Below the pieces are notes generated by a model. The model was not told where the DNA came from and ran no database searches. It worked only from the letters and a program-made list of their open reading frames with translations. A DNA stretch of 40,123 nt from a virus: IMG/VR virus record IMGVR_UViG_3300042010_000015, positions 1 through 40,123 of that record. One strand, written 5' to 3'. The stretch's first letter is position 1, and each line of letters begins with the position of its first letter. The translations under genes were made by a program, and so were the position numbers. Of the stretch, positions 4,031-19,024 are shown piece by piece.

Positions 4031-5152
4031 TCATTCTTCCTTCAGCAGGTATGCATTGCTGATCACTTTGAACGAGAAGTCGCGAGTGGTACTTTTGTAT
4101 ACGAAACCTTCGCGGTACTTACCTTTCAGTCCAGAAGGACCGTCAGCACGAACGATAGCGTCAGCGACTGTCTTGGCTTGCAATGGGCCAGTGAAGTTAA
4201 TCGGCACATGCTTCACGCCTTGATCAGTGCAGAACTCAAGTCGCTCAGCAGGCAGCATGTAACGCTGCTCATCAATCAGGTATACATCGTAGCAGAAGAA
4301 GGTGTTCTTGTCCATGCCTTCAAAGTTCTTCTGAATCGAAGGACCAACCAACTCACCTTGTACAGCGATGTTACGGCCATCACGGCGAATCGCTTCGATG
4401 ATGCCTTGCTCAGCAACAATCTGAGTGAACTGATTGTCGTCCTTCTTGATTACACGCTTCCAGCCTTTCCCACGGAAGTAGTTTTTGACAGAAGTAAAGA
4501 ACGGAATCTTTTCATCTTCAGTTCGGAAACCGACATTACGTGAAGCAACACCAGCAACACCGTTGCGAACGAAGGCCGTAAGAGAGCTACCATCCAGTTT
4601 GAACGACTCTTCAAATTCTTCCCCTTCTTCAACAGCTTTGTTGTACATGTGAGTGATGTTCTGCACTCGGGTCTGGTCAGTCTTCGGAATAAACTTAGGG
4701 AAGCCCAGAGCTGTAGTGCCTGTACGAACTCCGTTCGATCCACCACTGTTGTTCATGCTGGCTTCTTCGGCCTTCTCGTACTTGACAACGCCGAGGTCTT
4801 TGGTAAGGTCATCACCTACCTTTGCAGTCAGGCCAGTTTCAGTCAGAGGAATACAGAAACCTTGAGACAGTTGCTTACGCAACTTCATGGTTTTGATCCG
4901 TGCATGGGTACGGCCATCGACAACGTGCAAAAGCTTGCTTGACAGAGAAGCCAACGAGTTGAAGTACGGACGCTCAGTGTCAAGCAGCGAATCCACTTCG
5001 AAATAGACAGCAAGCGTTTTGTTTGGCTCATACAGTCCTTTCTGTACAACAACCTGCCAACCGCCAACGATAGCCAGCTCAATACGATCAGCGCCTTCAA
5101 TGGCAACCAGTTCGTCAATGGTAACAACACGGGCAAGAGCACGTTCAGACAT
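4031..5152 (-). CDS. RNA ligase, DRB0094 (Rnl5) type
   Basis: 373 residues. ATP-dependent RNA end joining through a covalent lysyl-AMP: motif I is KLDGSS with Lys185 as the nucleotidyl acceptor, motif IV is EGFVYK (348-353), and motif V contains Lys362 in FSFK. An acidic QGELVG segment (265-270) fits the intermediate motif. An N-terminal region of about 150 residues precedes the catalytic core and resembles the N-terminal OB-like part of the Deinococcus DRB0094 ligase family. TAAGGAG precedes the start. It is transcribed against the rest of the window, with only two minus-strand genes upstream. Phage RNA ligases usually repair tRNAs cut by host defence nucleases, often beside a polynucleotide kinase; no kinase is seen here. 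Confidence 0.88.
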   Translation of the reverse strand: MSERALARVVTIDELVAIEGADRIELAIVGGWQVVVQKGLYEPNKTLAVYFEVDSLLDTERPYFNSLASLSSKLLHVVDGRTHARIKTMKLRKQLSQGFCIPLTETGLTAKVGDDLTKDLGVVKYEKAEEASMNNSGGSNGVRTGTTALGFPKFIPKTDQTRVQNITHMYNKAVEEGEEFEESFKLDGSSLTAFVRNGVAGVASRNVGFRTEDEKIPFFTSVKNYFRGKGWKRVIKKDDNQFTQIVAEQGIIEAIRRDGRNIAVQGELVGPSIQKNFEGMDKNTFFCYDVYLIDEQRYMLPAERLEFCTDQGVKHVPINFTGPLQAKTVADAIVRADGPSGLKGKYREGFVYKSTTRDFSFKVISNAYLLKEE

Positions 5153-5175
5153 AAAATCTCCTTAAATTAGGGCGT

Positions 5176-5200
5176 AAAAATGCCCCCGTTGCAGGGGGCA
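5176..5200 (-). terminator. Terminator/attenuator between the 118-residue protein gene and RNA ligase
   Basis: On the minus strand TGCCCCC and GGGGGCA form a 7-bp stem with a 6-base loop, followed by TTTTT (plus strand AAAAA at 5176-5180). No promoter is visible between it and the ligase start at 5152, so ligase expression would depend on read-through. Confidence 0.75.
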
Positions 5201-5210
5201 AGAGTGTTTC

Positions 5211-5567
5211 TTAACGCAGAGCAGCGCCGAGTTCAGCCAGCAGACGCATCATGAGGGCTTCTTCTTCCGACATGTCGCCCAGCATTGCTGCCATGATCTT
5301 GTCTTGGTCAGACACCAGATCAGAAGTCACAGCCTTGACAGCAGCCAGACCACGCATTACAGTGTCTTCGTCGTCTGCCAGTTGAGCGGCAGAGACAAGA
5401 CCAACAGCGAGGTCAACCTTTTCGGTGACAGCCATCACTTCACCAAGAGCACCGGCAAGGTCGCCAATAGCTTTGAAGACGGCTTCGTCTTGAACACCCA
5501 GTTCAACCAGACGATCCGAGAGAGTCAGACCAGCGAGGACAGCAGCAGCAATAGTAACTTTAGACAT
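5211..5567 (-). CDS. Small acidic helical protein of unknown function
   Basis: 118 residues. The start is placed at 5567 (minus strand), where AAGGAG precedes the ATG; the frame stays open further upstream into the promoter at 5603-5630, so a longer form is unlikely. The protein is rich in Ala, Leu, Val, Asp and Glu and reads as all-helical, with no cysteine, signal peptide or membrane span. It has its own strong promoter and a terminator behind it, suggesting high expression. No family recognised. Confidence 0.75.
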   Translation of the reverse strand: MSKVTIAAAVLAGLTLSDRLVELGVQDEAVFKAIGDLAGALGEVMAVTEKVDLAVGLVSAAQLADDEDTVMRGLAAVKAVTSDLVSDQDKIMAAMLGDMSEEEALMMRLLAELGAALR

Positions 5568-5602
5568 ATTTTGTTTCTCCTTTGTGTGTTTAAGTGTGGG
5601 CC

Positions 5603-5630
5603 ATTCTATAGCAATTTTGATTCTTGTCAA
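5603..5630 (-). promoter_or_regulatory. sigma70-type promoter for the 118-residue protein gene
   Basis: On the minus strand TTGACA (5630-5625), a 16-base spacer and TAGAAT (5608-5603), followed by GGCCCACAC. It matches the consensus shared by the other promoters of this phage. Confidence 0.75.
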
Positions 5631-5644
5631 CACCTTTTGGAAAA

Positions 5645-5788
5645 TTAATTTCCGATGTTTGCACCTACTACATAACCAATCTGTGTTGCCTTCTTACGCA
5701 CTGCTTGGTTACGCTTCGATTCACTGATTCGCATCTGTGCAGCAGACAGAGGCTTGGTTTGTACTGGTGGTATAGTTGTGTGCTTCAT
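5645..5788 (-). CDS. Small basic protein of unknown function
   Basis: 47 residues, starting at ATG 5788 (minus) with GGAGGA 7 bases upstream. The C-terminal half is rich in Arg, Lys and Gln (a KRNQAVRKKATQ-type stretch). It is the first gene of the minus-strand island, behind its own promoter (5845-5818). Not recognised; a short basic nucleic-acid-binding or host-interaction peptide is possible. Confidence 0.6.
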   Translation of the reverse strand: MKHTTIPPVQTKPLSAAQMRISESKRNQAVRKKATQIGYVVGANIGN

Positions 5789-5817
5789 GTTGTGTCCTCC
5801 GTCGTTAATGTGCCGCC

Positions 5818-5845
5818 ATCTTATACGAAAAAGGAAAGCTGTCAA
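5818..5845 (-). promoter_or_regulatory. sigma70-type promoter driving the minus-strand island
   Basis: On the minus strand TTGACA (5845-5840), a 16-base spacer and TAAGAT (5823-5818). Its -35 box is 4 bases from the -35 box of the plus-strand promoter at 5850; together they form the palindrome TGTCAAG-CC-CTTGACA. Confidence 0.7.
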
Positions 5846-5849
5846 GCCC

Positions 5850-5877
5850 TTGACACAAAGAATTTCCGTGTTACTAT
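5850..5877 (+). promoter_or_regulatory. sigma70-type promoter for the leader RNA and the DUF4326/CoaB-like operon
   Basis: TTGACA (5850-5855), a 16-base spacer and TACTAT (5872-5877). Transcription would start near 5884, leaving a leader of about 295 bases before the first gene at 6180. Confidence 0.7.
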
Positions 5878-5883
5878 TCATCC

Positions 5884-6170
5884 GTCGCAGAGAGACATGT
5901 CAGCCGAAAGGCTTCACTCACCGTCCTGCGAGTGTACGCCCTATGAAGAGGTAAGCCGTTAGGGGCAACTGAGGTTGAATGTGGGAACAGAACGGCGGAC
6001 TCTAACACAGAGGAAGGACCACAATCTATAGCAGCCCATGCTGCCGACTCGCAATCTGAATTTTGGATAGCGTATGAGATAAACCTGTAGGCATGTCGAG
6101 GCTGGTGTTAATCAGTATGGCAAGCCTTGGGATTGGTTTATCTCGACAACACAAAACTGATTTTGGATAG
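5884..6170 (+). ncRNA. Long structured 5' leader, candidate riboregulator
   Basis: No convincing gene lies between the promoter at 5850 and the start at 6180. The RNA can fold: TCGCAG (5885-5890) pairs with CTGCGA further on, enclosing a GCC-GAAA-GGC tetraloop hairpin; GCAGC-CCAT-GCTGC forms another hairpin near 6030-6045; GAGATAAACC (6076-6085) pairs perfectly with GGTTTATCTC (6135-6144), with AGGCT/AGCCT inside. TTTTGGATAG occurs twice (6061-6070 and about 6161-6170); the second copy runs into the ribosome binding site of the first gene. A 21-codon frame (5898-5962) with a weak RBS exists inside. It does not match a riboswitch I know. Confidence 0.45.
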
Positions 6171-6179
6171 GAGCAAAGT

Positions 6180-6491
6180 ATGTGCCAAGTAGTAAATAAG
6201 CATAAAGTGAACATGGATGACCCTGACATTGTATACATTGGCAGAGGATCAGAATGGGGAAACCCATACAGCCATAAAGACGGAACGAAAGCCATCGTAC
6301 AGGTGGATTCTGTCGCAGAAGCCATACAGCTATATAGAAAGTGGTTGTGGTTTCTGATCAAGACTGGCGTTGTTACAATCGAAATGCTGAAAGACCTTGA
6401 CGGAAAACGATTGGCCTGTTATTGTTCTCCAAATCCCTGTCATGGGAACGTCATTAAACGAGCTGTCCAATGGGCAAAGGAGCAGAAATGA
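6180..6491 (+). CDS. DUF4326 family protein
   Basis: 103 residues with the family's two signatures: GRGSEWGNP (21-29) and CYCSPNPCHG (80-89, with Cys80, Cys82, Cys87 and His88 as a likely metal or redox site). The family is widespread in phages and bacteria and has no established biochemical function that I can cite. TAGGAG precedes ATG 6180. It is the first gene of a seven-gene run in which each start overlaps the previous stop. Confidence 0.85.
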   Translation: MCQVVNKHKVNMDDPDIVYIGRGSEWGNPYSHKDGTKAIVQVDSVAEAIQLYRKWLWFLIKTGVVTIEMLKDLDGKRLACYCSPNPCHGNVIKRAVQWAKEQK

Positions 6492-7117
6492 GCAAGGTTG
6501 TAATCATTGGTGGTGGTACGTTCAACCCTATTTCCTGCCATCTGGCGCTAGCTGCACCAGCTTTTGGTGGTACGGCTAAGCAGCTCCACAAGATGTTTGC
6601 AGACAACGGAACGCTGGAACCCCAATTGGTGCTGACAAAGATGGCTGATTCGAATAGTACCCTGCTCACCAATGAGGACGTTGAAACCTTTATACTTGAT
6701 GTGCTGTTACCAAATGAAGACGTTAAAGCCATCGTCATGAATGCGGCTATCTGTGATTTCTATGTGGACAACCTATACACATACGAGACACGTCTATCAA
6801 GCTCTAAGGATTACCCTGTGACCCTTAAGGGTGTGCAAGGTAAGATGATGACGCTCATCAAGCAACGTCGTCCTGATATCATTGTGGCTGGCTTCAAGAC
6901 CACACACAATGCGAGCAAGGTTGAGCAGGTGGCTAAAGCCTTCAACTCAATGCACAACAGCAACCTTGACATGGTGCTGGCAAATGATGTAGAGACGCGA
7001 AGCAACATTCTGATCACCAAAGACCTAACAATCCAAACGGGAAGTCGCGAGTTTCTGCTTGACCAGATCATGGCTAACACTGTAATCTACACCAACATGC
7101 AGGCTTGGGGCTTATAA
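6488..7117 (+). CDS. CoaB-like (phosphopantothenate-cysteine ligase domain) protein
   Basis: 209 residues from ATG 6488, which overlaps the previous stop (ATGA) and has AAAGGAG 6 bases upstream. It reads as a Rossmann-like DFP/CoaB domain: a glycine-rich GGGT (8-11), NAAICDF (85-91) like the AAVADF of CoaB, AGFKTT (134-139) like the VGFAAET segment, and DMVLANDV (161-168), close to the DLIVANDV signature. CoaB joins cysteine to 4'-phosphopantothenate in coenzyme A synthesis. The protein is a little shorter than a full CoaB domain and lacks the CoaC half, so a changed substrate is possible. The fold call is good; the exact reaction is inferred. Confidence 0.72.
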   Translation: MSKVVIIGGGTFNPISCHLALAAPAFGGTAKQLHKMFADNGTLEPQLVLTKMADSNSTLLTNEDVETFILDVLLPNEDVKAIVMNAAICDFYVDNLYTYETRLSSSKDYPVTLKGVQGKMMTLIKQRRPDIIVAGFKTTHNASKVEQVAKAFNSMHNSNLDMVLANDVETRSNILITKDLTIQTGSREFLLDQIMANTVIYTNMQAWGL

Positions 7118-14778: not shown

Positions 14779-14963
14779 GCCAGTACACCGTAACAAGCAA
14801 GGAGCGTTACCATATGTACGCTCTTGGCGAAACCATCACCCGCATTGGTAACGCCTACAACTTCATCCTTGACGGTTACGAGTATGTGAACGCCAAAGGG
14901 ATCAAGCAATATCTTGCTGATCGTGAAGTAAAACTTGTTGACAGCCAAGAAAAACTGTCGTAA
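14775..14963 (+). CDS. Small protein, unknown function
   Basis: 62 residues starting in the stop of the previous gene (ATGA). Its last 26 bases contain the -35 box and spacer of the next promoter. The sequence is mixed alpha/beta without motif. Confidence 0.58.
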   Translation: MSQYTVTSKERYHMYALGETITRIGNAYNFILDGYEYVNAKGIKQYLADREVKLVDSQEKLS

Positions 14964-14966
14964 GAT
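14938..14966 (+). promoter_or_regulatory. sigma70-type promoter overlapping a gene end
   Basis: TTGACA (14938-14943), a 17-base spacer and TAAGAT (14961-14966), 30 bases before ATG 14996. The stop codon of the preceding gene is in the -10 box. Confidence 0.72.
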
Positions 14967-15394: not shown

Positions 15395-15475
15395 TCTGAT
15401 CAATCAACAAACAATGGGGGTCGTTTTGGCCCCTCACTCGCCCACGTGATTGGGTATTTAGATAGGAGAAACATA

Positions 15476-16498
15476 ATGGCTTTTCAAACAACTGGTAACA
15501 ACACTACTGCTGGCTCTGAAAACCGTAAGGTTGTGGACTACAAAGCCCTCAACGCACATCTGGTTGAAGTGGCTGGTGGCGGTAAGCAGCGTTCGCTGCC
15601 GGGTATCATCACTGGTATATACGACCTCGGCCTTCAAAAGCTGGATGACGCAGCGATTCTCGTTACTGACGCTGAATGGGTAAAACGCTTCCCTGAGTAC
15701 GACGGTACTAAAGCAGGCGAAGAGGCTGTAATTGCCAAGGCCAACCGTGAGAACGCTCGCTTCGAAATGTTCGAAGGCAATATGTGCTTCCGCTACAAGC
15801 AGAAGGACGTGCAGCAAGTGGCAATCTCTGTGGACTTCCCTCAGATCATGGCTGACAAAGGCGCGTTCTTCACTGGTGAATCCAAGCCAATGCCTCTGCG
15901 TCTGATCCTGAACGGTGAGTTCAATCGTCTGGTGCAGAAGCCGTTCAACCTGCGTTCGATGAACCACAACCAAGGCAAGCCGGGTGCTGCAAAGTGGGCA
16001 CTGGCTAAAAACAGCCAACTGCACAAACTGGCTGATGCTTCGGGGCTTTTGGACACTGATGGTTTGTTCAAAGCAGAGCGTCTTGACGAACTGCTGGGCA
16101 AAGTTGTACAGTTCCAGATTCGTCTGTACATCAACGATAAGGGTTTCTTCAAGGAAGATATCAAAATCGCTGGGATGGTTCCAGAAGGTCTGCCACACCC
16201 AACTCTGCCAGAAGGTGTAACATTGGCTCTGGTTCAAATGTGGGATGACAACATTGACAAGACCGCTGCTCTGGAAGCACGTGCTTGCATCAAGAACCAT
16301 CAGCGTAAAGCTGTAAACTTCACCAGCACTGAAGCTGACGGCACTGTTAAAGACAGCCCGCTGAAAGCCATCATCGGTGAAGGTTGGAAGGCTGATGGCG
16401 ACAAGCCAAAGGCTGCTGAGGCTGCGAAGCCAACGGGCATTGCTCCAAGCGCTCCAGCGCCTGACAGCGACGACTTTGACGACGACGTGCCGTTCTGA
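15476..16498 (+). CDS. Single-stranded DNA-binding protein
   Basis: 340 residues from ATG 15476 (TAGGAG upstream; a start ten codons earlier lacks an RBS). The C-terminus is a proline/alanine linker followed by a strongly acidic tail ending DDFDDDVPF, the hallmark of SSB proteins that dock replication partners through their last residues (compare DDDIPF of E. coli SSB). The large N-terminal part is not a simple E. coli-type OB fold and better fits a phage-specific SSB. Its position among primase-helicase, polymerase and exonuclease supports the call. The acidic tail is the clearest evidence. Confidence 0.82.
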   Translation: MAFQTTGNNTTAGSENRKVVDYKALNAHLVEVAGGGKQRSLPGIITGIYDLGLQKLDDAAILVTDAEWVKRFPEYDGTKAGEEAVIAKANRENARFEMFEGNMCFRYKQKDVQQVAISVDFPQIMADKGAFFTGESKPMPLRLILNGEFNRLVQKPFNLRSMNHNQGKPGAAKWALAKNSQLHKLADASGLLDTDGLFKAERLDELLGKVVQFQIRLYINDKGFFKEDIKIAGMVPEGLPHPTLPEGVTLALVQMWDDNIDKTAALEARACIKNHQRKAVNFTSTEADGTVKDSPLKAIIGEGWKADGDKPKAAEAAKPTGIAPSAPAPDSDDFDDDVPF

Positions 16499-16508
16499 TC
16501 CACAAGAG

Positions 16509-16534
16509 GCGGGGCTTTATGCCCCGCTGTTCTT
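16509..16534 (+). terminator. Terminator after SSB
   Basis: GCGGGGC-TTTAT-GCCCCGC, a 7-bp stem, followed by TGTTCTTT. The next gene (alginate lyase) starts 14 bases later without a visible promoter, so it depends on read-through. Confidence 0.78.
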
Positions 16535-16547
16535 TGCGAGGTAAATG

Positions 16548-17162
16548 ATGTTTAGTTTTGGCAATATCACAGCACACGGGCAAACATATTTGTATCCTGA
16601 AAAACCTCCACAAGATTTGGTATGGACAGACCCAAAAGGTCACACAAACTACTGGTGTTCTGTGTTAGGTGATACATCCGGTAGCAGCTCCAGCCCACGC
16701 ACAGAGAGTCGTCAAACACTTCCTGAGTCGGGTTTGCCCTACAACTGGACAGTGGATGGCGTGGCACACGCAATGTCCGGCACTGTAAGAGTTGAACTGG
16801 CACCAAGCTCTGGTAAGGTGATTGTAGGTCAAATCCACGCACACAAAGCACCTAATCCATTCTTGATGGTTACATGGTGGAACGGTGTTGCACGGGCTGA
16901 TTTAAGAGCTAACCCTACAGACCCAGCAGTCAAAGTGTTGTCCGTTCCTTGCCCGTTAGGTGAGACGTTCGAATACCGCTTAGAGGTTGATTCCTCTGGT
17001 GAGCTTCACATAAACCTTGAAGGCTTCGGCTATCACTTGAAGGTGAGCGAAGCATGGAAGGAATACCCATTCTACTTCAAAGCTGGTGCCTACGTGATCG
17101 ACAATGTAGGGCCAGAGACTGAAGGTGGTTGGGTAGTGTATGAACAGTTTGGTGTGATTTAA
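16548..17162 (+). CDS. Alginate lyase, polysaccharide lyase family 7
   Basis: 204 residues (ATG 16548 preferred, GAGG 7 bases upstream; ATG 16545 also possible). It cleaves alginate by beta-elimination. PL7 signatures in order: RTESR (51-55, family consensus RTELR), QIH (95-97) and YFKAGAY (176-182), giving the expected Arg, Gln, His and Tyr of the active cleft. The beta-jelly-roll length is normal for a single-domain PL7. There is no signal peptide, so the enzyme would be released at lysis. It sits alone between two replication genes, behind a terminator, and uses AGA, CGG and TTA codons that are rare in its neighbours, which suggests later acquisition. It points to an alginate-producing host such as Pseudomonas. 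Confidence 0.87.
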   Translation: MFSFGNITAHGQTYLYPEKPPQDLVWTDPKGHTNYWCSVLGDTSGSSSSPRTESRQTLPESGLPYNWTVDGVAHAMSGTVRVELAPSSGKVIVGQIHAHKAPNPFLMVTWWNGVARADLRANPTDPAVKVLSVPCPLGETFEYRLEVDSSGELHINLEGFGYHLKVSEAWKEYPFYFKAGAYVIDNVGPETEGGWVVYEQFGVI

Positions 17163-17165
17163 TTG

Positions 17166-17194
17166 TTGACATGGAAGGGCACAGTCTGTAAGAT
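17166..17194 (+). promoter_or_regulatory. sigma70-type promoter with flanking inverted repeat
   Basis: TTGACA (17166-17171), a 17-base spacer and TAAGAT (17189-17194). GGCACA (17178-17183) and TGTGCC (17194-17199) flank the -10 box and extend by one GT and one AT pair. Confidence 0.75.
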
Positions 17195-17222
17195 GTGCCT
17201 TCACCACTTACCAAAAGGAATA

Positions 17223-17348
17223 ATGATGAATCTGTTCTGGTTTATTTTCTGGGCTTGCGTTGTGATTGACGTTGTAGTACCGGGAGTTAACATCGCACTT
17301 GGCTGGTATATCCTCTGGGGTGTCCTCGGCCTGCTCAGTAATGATTAA
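17223..17348 (+). CDS. Very small membrane protein
   Basis: 41 residues from ATG 17223 (AAAGGA 5 bases upstream). It is almost entirely hydrophobic, with two possible short spans (about 3-19 and 23-37) and many Trp/Phe. It lies between a promoter and the VWA protein gene (14 bases apart); the two could act together. Confidence 0.6.
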   Translation: MMNLFWFIFWACVVIDVVVPGVNIALGWYILWGVLGLLSND

Positions 17349-17361
17349 TAAAGGAGAGACA

Positions 17362-17925
17362 ATGACAAATCCAAATGCAGTACAAATCGTGTTCGTAATT
17401 GACGAATCGGGCAGCATGGGCCACCTACGTGGTGATGTGATCGGTGGCTTCAACACCTTGATTGCTGAGCAACGTAAGATCGAAGGCGCTGCTGACGTTA
17501 CCCTGTACGTCTTCAGCAACCGTGTACATCTTACACTGGATGCAGTCGCACTGGCTGACGTACAAGACCTGACCGAAGCCTCGTATCAGCCGGGTGGTAT
17601 GACCGCGATGAACGACGCAATCGGCACAGCACTCTCTAAAGTGCTGAAAGAAGCTCCAGACAAAGCAATCATCAATATCTTCACTGATGGTCATGAGAAC
17701 GCTTCTGTCGAGTACAGCGGTGCTAAGATCAAAGAGTTGGTCAAGCAAGCAGAAGAGAAAGGATACCAAATCGTTTTCCTCGCTGCAAACATTGACGAAG
17801 TTGTTACTGGTGCTGCTTACGGTATCTCCGCTGGCGCTACACGTAGCTTTGTAGCGGACTCTGTAGGCATGGAATGGGCAATGTTGAGCGCCTCGGCATC
17901 TACTAAGTCTTACCGCAGCCAGTAA
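17362..17925 (+). CDS. Von Willebrand factor A (VWA) domain protein
   Basis: 187 residues from ATG 17362, with AAAGGAG 6 bases upstream. A complete metal-ion-dependent adhesion site is visible: DESGS (Asp14, Ser16, Ser18), Thr81 in GGMTAMNDA, and Asp109 in FTDGHEN. The whole protein is one VWA domain with no export signal, so it acts in the cytoplasm, probably as a protein-binding module. Related stand-alone VWA proteins are known from TerY-like and MoxR-linked systems, but no partner ATPase is seen here. It is co-transcribed with the tiny membrane protein before it and closed by a terminator. Confidence 0.85.
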   Translation: MTNPNAVQIVFVIDESGSMGHLRGDVIGGFNTLIAEQRKIEGAADVTLYVFSNRVHLTLDAVALADVQDLTEASYQPGGMTAMNDAIGTALSKVLKEAPDKAIINIFTDGHENASVEYSGAKIKELVKQAEEKGYQIVFLAANIDEVVTGAAYGISAGATRSFVADSVGMEWAMLSASASTKSYRSQ

Positions 17926-17986: not shown

Positions 17987-19024
17987 ATGAGCGAGGACAT
18001 TCTAGTATTTGACGCAGACAGCATTGCATACAAGGCAGCAGCGGCAAACGAAGAGAAGAGTATCAAAACACAGCATATCGAAAAGGGTGTGATCGAACAG
18101 TGGAGCAACCGTACAGAGTTCAGAGCCTATCTGGCTGACACTGACCACACTGAGGATATGTACACCATCACTGACGTACAAGACCCGCGACATTCTAGTT
18201 ATGGGAAGAGCCTGATTCGCGATATGATCAAGGGCTACCACACTCGCACTGGTGTTACCAAAGGTGAGATTTACATCGGCGGTGAGAACAATTTCCGTGA
18301 CTTGATTCCTTTGCCAATGACTCACGTTGCAACAGTTGGTAAATGGGCGGGCAAGAGTAAACTCGGCGGGAAATATAAAGAGAACCGTGAAGACACTATC
18401 CGTCCCTTACAGTTGAAAGAACTACGTGCGTATCTGATTGGTGAGCTGAAAGCTGGCATTGTCAATGGTATGGAAGTGGACGACAAACAGTCTATGCGTT
18501 CGTATGAAGGCTTTAAGACTGATACTCGTATCATCACTGTAACAGAAGACAAAGATGCACTGGGTTGTTCTGGCTGGCTGTGGAATCCTGCGAAGATGAT
18601 CAAACCTATCCTGATTAAAGGCTTTGGTGAGCTGCACAAGGAAGGGAAAGGCATCAAGGGTACTGGCAGACTGTGGCTGTACTACCAAGCGCTTTACGGT
18701 GATTCTGTGGACAACTATCATGGGTGTGACCTGTGGAAGATTGCACAGGACAAAGCAGGCAAGAGTGTGACGTTTGGTGAAGTAGCAGCATATAACGTGC
18801 TGAAAGACGCAACCAACGACAAAGAAGCTCTGACAGCTCTGTACAACCAATACAAAAGCTGGTATCCTGAGCCGGTGACGTACATGGCTCATGACGGTGT
18901 TCTCCACACCAAAGACGCCCTTGAAATCATGCAGATGTATTTTGATTGTGCTCACATGCGTCGTTGGGAAGATGACCGTATTGATGTTGCTGTGATGCTT
19001 GATAAGTTGGGGGTGACTCTATGA
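17987..19024 (+). CDS. 5'-3' exonuclease, FEN/T7 gp6-like
   Basis: 345 residues, with GGGAGG before ATG 17987. Acidic metal-binding motifs of the 5' nuclease family occur in order: FDADS (Asp9, Asp11), the basic KYKENR (129-134), EVDD (163-166), TEDKDA (Asp188, Asp190) and GDSVDN (238-243), which starts the helix-hairpin-helix DNA clamp. In T7-like replication this enzyme removes RNA primers and degrades host DNA. The length matches T7 gp6 (about 300-350). The next gene overlaps by 4 bases. Confidence 0.9.
   Translation: MSEDILVFDADSIAYKAAAANEEKSIKTQHIEKGVIEQWSNRTEFRAYLADTDHTEDMYTITDVQDPRHSSYGKSLIRDMIKGYHTRTGVTKGEIYIGGENNFRDLIPLPMTHVATVGKWAGKSKLGGKYKENREDTIRPLQLKELRAYLIGELKAGIVNGMEVDDKQSMRSYEGFKTDTRIITVTEDKDALGCSGWLWNPAKMIKPILIKGFGELHKEGKGIKGTGRLWLYYQALYGDSVDNYHGCDLWKIAQDKAGKSVTFGEVAAYNVLKDATNDKEALTALYNQYKSWYPEPVTYMAHDGVLHTKDALEIMQMYFDCAHMRRWEDDRIDVAVMLDKLGVTL

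Follow-up and report, generated by a model that had tools for sequence, protein, structure and literature searches.

A probable alginate lyase of a phage-specific PL7 branch, carried as apparently mobile cargo by Pseudomonas phages

A stretch of viral DNA of 40,123 nucleotides (IMG/VR record IMGVR_UViG_3300042010_000015, here called the window) carries at 16548-17162, on the plus strand, the complete ORF of a PL7 alginate lyase of 204 aa and 22.5 kDa. The best reading of this gene is that it is mobile accessory cargo, a member of a phage-specific PL7 branch that turns up at many unrelated genome positions. We believe the product is probably an active cytosolic PL7 alginate lyase, accessory cargo of a Pseudomonas phage, that is expressed by read-through, released at lysis and useful for the spread of progeny. 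We infer the read-through, the enzyme activity, the substrate, the release at lysis and the benefit to dispersal.

The locus

The features that the argument uses are these, all on the plus strand.

14938-14966: promoter-like site TTGACA-N17-TAAGAT, the likely source of transcripts for the SSB gene and, by read-through, the lyase
15446-16498: SSB-like gene (phrog_2544, E=1e-101), exact start uncertain, with an acidic tail DDFDDDVPF
16508-16528: hairpin like an intrinsic terminator, between SSB and lyase (-20.6 kcal/mol, z -2.8)
16538-16541: Shine-Dalgarno GAGG, found in the sequence 6 nt before the ATG at 16548
16545-17162: lyase ORF, 205 codons and a stop, beginning ATGATG
17166-17194: sigma-70-like promoter TTGACA-N17-TAAGAT, just past the lyase stop, the right edge of the insert
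17178-17199: inverted repeat GGCACA...TGTGCC, overlapping the -10 box and conserved in relatives, a possible operator
17226-17348: small ORF of 40 aa, strongly hydrophobic by hydropathy (phrog_17732, E=1.5e-22)
17362-17925: VWA-domain protein (PF00092, E=4e-10)
17987-19024: exonuclease (phrog_107, E=7e-67)

The lyase ORF has the same orientation as the genes around it and has an alternative in-frame start at 16545. The second ATG, at 16548, appears the likelier start because the Shine-Dalgarno is placed for it. An identical GAGGTAAATGATG precedes the lyase in two unrelated phages (L014 and L019). The gene at 15446-16498 is probably an SSB, as its acidic tail suggests; the function of phrog_2544 is unnamed in PHROGs.

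Identity, fold and active site

The sequence-only reading had called this ORF a complete PL7 alginate lyase and had proposed a profile search and a structure prediction as checks. Both agree with it. Pfam PF08787 (Alginate_lyase2) matches at E=2.5e-30 with 106.4 bits, well above the cut-off of 29.7, and the match covers positions 37-220 of the 225 in the profile; NCBIfam gave no match. Among solved structures, those closest in sequence are PA1167 of P. aeruginosa (E=1.3e-24) and A1-II' of Sphingomonas. An AlphaFold2 model built with 21 aligned relatives has a mean pLDDT of 90, and the top Foldseek matches to this model are all PL7 lyases, with PA1167 first (E=1.6e-17, TM 0.85). The predicted fold is the beta-jelly-roll of the PL7 structures, and the Arg, Gln, His and Tyr positions of the active site are kept. 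Hydropathy finds no hydrophobic stretch and no signal peptide at the N-terminus, and Pfam finds a single PL7 domain with no added structural or tail-binding domain, as had been read from the letters alone.

The three motifs that were named from the sequence are all present: RTESR (52-56), QIH (96-98) and YFKAGAY (177-183). They can be compared with the published PL7 motifs RxEL(V)R, QI(V)H and YFKxGxYxQ, in which the His is the base, the Tyr is the acid and the Gln is the charge neutraliser (PMC9345997). The catalytic Gln, His, Tyr and Arg are retained and two positions deviate. The first is a Ser in place of Leu in RTESR, at a position that is variable among relatives. The second is an Ile (I185) in place of the last Gln of YFKxGxYxQ, and this Ile is invariant in a 16-row alignment of the phage type; it may have changed the substrate preference. 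In a 21-row alignment spanning phage, Pseudomonas and planctomycete sequences the invariant residues are R52, E54, R56, Q96, I97, H98, K179, G181, Y183 and D186. By alignment the counterparts of H98 and Y183 in A1-II' are H191 and Y284, which are mutated in 2zaa/2zab.

The lyase is under strong purifying selection, with dN/dS of about 0.1. By the NG86 method the ratio is 0.09 between the window and L010, 0.10 against L021 and 0.13 against L012, and it ranges over 0.07-0.29 in the 12 pairs with a usable estimate.

An insert before the next promoter

Five relatives are free of the lyase (UNO-G1W1, L008; phiPsa397, L007; phiPsa374, L100; L099; L102), and in all five a promoter stands about 5-20 nt past the SSB stop. 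In L007, L008, L099 and L100 it reads TTGACA-N17-TA(A/T/G)GAT and overlaps GGGCACA...TGTGCCC; the version in L102 has diverged. The window, L010, L016, L017, L020 and L023 have the same promoter, starting at the lyase stop or within a few bases of it. Since the lyase-free relatives have the promoter right after SSB, the stretch from 16499 to about 17162, hairpin and lyase together, is extra DNA, and the suspicion that the lyase is an insertion relative to close relatives is borne out. The whole genomes of phiPsa397 and UNO-G1W1 contain no PF08787 gene. The insertion point varies even inside the interval from SSB to exonuclease, because in L053 the lyase lies on the opposite side of the promoter. 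Hairpins comparable to that at 16508-16528 accompany the lyase in L001 and L017, and in L020 and L023 they stand where an HNH ORF begins; none was found in the lyase-free L007, L008, L099 and L100.

It had been noticed that a terminator without a new promoter precedes the lyase, and indeed no consensus promoter lies between the hairpin and the ORF. Since the lyase has no promoter of its own and lies between a terminator and the next promoter, its transcripts are expected to come from upstream, for instance from 14938, by read-through of the hairpin. The window has 21 sites of the form TTGACA-N16-18-TANNNT on the plus strand against 3 on the minus strand, with 0.7 expected from shuffles, and this excess on the plus strand argues that the region reads rightwards. 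The placement of the lyase between SSB and exonuclease, as first described, holds insofar as the gene is outside the structural genes, but two ORFs, those of the 40-aa peptide and the VWA protein, precede the exonuclease.

Several observations concern the neighbours. The conserved dyad after SSB or lyase resembles the operator of a phage repressor; in the form GGGCACA-N10-TGTGCCC, overlapping the -10 box, it also occurs at L007 6532, L008 6367, L017 6642 and L053 5576. The hydrophobic peptide is conserved between SSB and the VWA gene, and the VWA gene is kept beside the exonuclease in many relatives. L001, L017, L020, L023 and L053 are syntenic with the window in helicase, SSB and exonuclease but their DNA polymerase is only about 21-23% identical, suggesting that the polymerase has been replaced in these phages.

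Genome positions of the relatives

A tblastn search found 15 phage records, of which phiK7A1 (73%), Arace01 (55%) and Ep020 (54%) are the close ones, and IMG/VR holds more than 20 further contigs with lyase homologues at 58-97%. The lyase of L010 and L011 is 97% identical in amino acids to that of the window. By local gene comparison the close relatives (61-81%) lie in at least nine unrelated phage neighbourhoods.

SSB/exonuclease: the window, L010, L001, L017, L020, L023, L025, L053
DNA ligase/phosphoesterase: L012, L014, L019, L021
2-3 kb from tail-fibre or baseplate genes, on the other strand (group III): L013, L015, L018
PhoH/helicase: L022, L028
PhoH: L026
ATPase/HNH: L027
RtcB: L054
neighbourhoods of their own: Arace01; Ep020

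The strongest single fact for mobility is the position of the lyase in Ep020. This phage is labelled Otagovirus, the genus of the window, and its polymerase and exonuclease, within 40.9-47.8 kb, are 78% and 84% identical to those of the window. Its SSB and exonuclease are at 44.7-47.8 kb, and the lyase is some 28 kb away from them, at 75.1-75.7 kb on the minus strand. Similarly, G007 (L012) has the lyase at 11.5 kb, the SSB homologue at 80.7 kb and the exonuclease homologue at 84.2 kb. We argue for mobility from these genome positions and not from the protein tree, because the AU tests leave room for a single clade of SSB-locus lyases. The site between SSB and exonuclease is one of many positions for the lyase and so nothing special to the replication operon.

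The lyase resembles a moron in that it is an extra gene interrupting otherwise syntenic relatives. However, a moron has its own promoter and its own downstream terminator, and here the hairpin is upstream and the next promoter is past the lyase. We therefore call it mobile cargo and not a classical moron.

A more specific account of the spread should be weighed here. Homing endonucleases are common in such phages. ORFs matching the endonuclease family phrog_2340 stand between SSB and lyase in L020 (5601-5996), L023 (5532-5999) and L025 (5347-5859), with no Pfam family above cut-off in them, and HNH genes also lie close to the lyase in L027 (+1) and L021 (-2). L017 has no endonuclease ORF there, though its lyase is almost identical to that of L023. 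Spread driven by homing endonucleases is only a lead. The fuller proposal, which we hold tentatively and think rather unlikely as a whole, is that a lyase cassette dedicated to phages spreads among unrelated Pseudomonas phages with the help of adjoining free-standing HNH homing endonucleases in some genomes, that it usually settles where one transcription unit ends, just ahead of the following promoter, and that it has been passed to prophages and bacterial chromosomes.

Nican01, Pori-4 and Psa21 (L004, L005, L006) have PL7 genes of other kinds, highly diverged and away from obvious tail genes, which these phages probably acquired independently.

Proposed function

Our reading of the lyase as cytosolic cargo released at lysis would work as follows. 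The lyase would be expressed as part of the SSB transcription unit, when transcription reads through the terminator, and would accumulate in the infected cell. Freed at lysis, it would cut alginate around the burst cell by beta-elimination, with His98 as the base, Tyr183 as the acid, and Gln96 and Arg52 binding the carboxylate or the substrate. Such cutting could ease the way of progeny virions through slime or biofilm. The presence of the lyase in some phages and its absence from otherwise similar ones makes the benefit of a free depolymerase in biofilm testable by deletion of a single gene.

That the lyase acts as a free enzyme released at lysis was proposed from the letters alone, and it is still the simplest reading given a gene outside the structural genes. 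The argument from a signal-less N-terminus is weakened. Lacking an export signal, the lyase cannot leave the infected cell, but the PL7s of Pseudomonas cells, which begin MIDLTTWNL..., likewise have no signal, so the missing signal peptide is by itself no argument for lysis release. We argue instead from the phage life cycle, since an enzyme kept in the cytosol has no contact with exported alginate before the cell bursts. Soluble phage depolymerases that are not part of the virion and are set free by lysis are a recognised class (PMC5380687), and the lyase looks like one of them in having neither a signal peptide nor a structural domain. Whether a free depolymerase helps or hurts phage spread is an open question (PMC6966330).

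A depolymerase of the virion is expected to be fused to a structural or tail-binding part or to lie in the tail module, and the lyase does neither. It could nonetheless be a virion component, held non-covalently on the tail or capsid or packed inside the head, that clears alginate at adsorption. Most described phage depolymerases are virion-associated and some lysins travel free inside the capsid (PMC5380687), and the group III copies (L013, L015, L018) are near tail-fibre genes, though on the other strand. We find this improbable. The close relatives are about 205 aa with a single PL7 domain and no added binding domain, their neighbours are mostly genes of nucleic-acid metabolism (ligase, PhoH, helicase, RtcB, SSB), and the position of the lyase relative to structural genes is not conserved.

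Alginate is the likely and not the proven substrate because PL7 also includes a beta-glucuronan lyase (7nde). That enzyme, the signal-less cellular Pseudomonas PL7s that make a cytosolic role conceivable, and the replacement of the motif Gln by Ile are what recommend the idea that the lyase is a metabolic auxiliary gene acting on some other polyuronide or on short oligomers inside the cell. The usual reading of QIH is recognition of polyG or polyMG, with exceptions, and PA1167, the closest characterised relative, prefers polyMG alginate (PMC7460543). The window lyase keeps QIH and the catalytic residues, and no genes of oligo-uronate catabolism were recognised beside the phage copies examined, so we would give this idea little chance.

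The lyase had also been said to identify an alginate-producing host. The lyase alone does not show alginate production. The host is very probably Pseudomonas, a call that rests on genome similarity and the distribution of the lyase.

Comparison with known systems

PA1167 (PDB 1VAV, polyMG-preferring) is like the window lyase in fold, catalytic residues and approximate size, and Pseudomonas PL7s of its type likewise have no evident secretion signal. The identity is about 28% over the structural alignment, and the window lyase is phage-borne. The phage branch has a shorter and different N-terminus (FGNITAHG...), and I185 takes the place of the motif Gln. A1-II' of Sphingomonas sp. A1 (2CWS; mutants H191N and Y284F) shares the active-site His and Tyr with H98 and Y183; it is about 26% identical and cellular, not phage-borne.

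The lyases of phiK7A1 (gene 116, QNR53904.1, annotated PL7) and Ep020 belong to the same phage-type branch as that of the window. The phiK7A1 lyase is also between SSB and exonuclease, yet the SSB and polymerase of that phage are distant from those of the window (40% and 21%); the Ep020 lyase is at another locus. Our literature search found no paper on the lyase gene in Otagovirus or phiK7A1.

Biochemical work on phage alginases goes back to 1977. The PT-6 alginase (37 kDa) and the enzyme of an A. vinelandii phage (30-35 kDa) are phage alginate lyases larger than that of the window; they are the only ones that the reviews consulted mention, and these assign no gene to either (PMC10621286, PMC5380687, PMC6966330). 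Only P. aeruginosa and A. vinelandii phages are named as encoding alginate lyases in PMC10621286. As far as the account cited in PMC6966330 goes, the soluble enzymes of phage phiNIT1 are likewise free, matrix-degrading and not built into the virion, though they are unrelated enzymes with other substrates and hosts. With the phage PL7 branch there are now sequenced genes, a structure model and over 20 further homologues from phages that can be tested directly, and the lyase is a compact candidate enzyme against Pseudomonas alginate.

Phylogeny and the question of recent capture

Two trees were used; one row of the larger (L073) was a wrong fragment, and the smaller excludes it. In the larger tree the phage-type PL7s group together with support of 100/100, seven copies from bacteria or prophages among them. 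The stem to the ordinary Pseudomonas PL7s is 2.06 substitutions per site in the larger tree and 1.78, with support of 100/99, in the smaller. The window and L021 are a sister pair in the larger tree (98/92), a pairing that is not starred in the smaller. SSB-locus lyases are scattered in the tree; one clade of all nine has an AU p of 0.10 and one clade of the six that share the insert site has p=0.37, so that neither is rejected.

Some kind of PL7 is present in 152 of 199 Pseudomonas genomes sampled, the phage type in only 3. Some bacterial copies of the phage type are in prophage-like regions (ParB phrog_1033, phrog_210) and others in chromosomal contexts (threonine synthase, FecR/TonB, AcrB). 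Because the bacterial copies nest inside phage sequences in the larger tree, a nesting that the smaller tree does not resolve, transfer from phage to bacterium is no less likely than the opposite direction.

Recent acquisition had been read from codons said to differ from those of the neighbours. TTA is somewhat frequent (4), but AGA (2) and CGG (1) are ordinary, the codon adaptation of the lyase to window usage is only the 7th lowest among 27 window genes, and its GC equals that of the window (48.1% vs 47.6%). This weak signal, the 97% sharing with L010 and L011, and an old phage branch whose groups are separated by dS of about 1-2, largely saturated, all count against a recent arrival. A recent capture from a Pseudomonas host genome is largely refuted and in our view highly improbable: the many Pseudomonas genomes with a PL7, the slightly atypical codons and the absence of the lyase from close relatives speak for it, but the long and fully supported stem, the rarity of the phage type in those genomes, the nesting of bacterial copies in the larger tree, the matching GC and the near-saturated dS speak against it.

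Two further observations concern the bacterial genes. A Pseudomonas chromosome (L050) has tandem PL7s at 5065-5850 and 6001-6633, which represent the jumbo-phage (Psa21) type and the window type. Several Pseudomonas genomes (G139, G174, G160 and G175) contain 4-6 PL7 matches each, some arranged head-to-tail.
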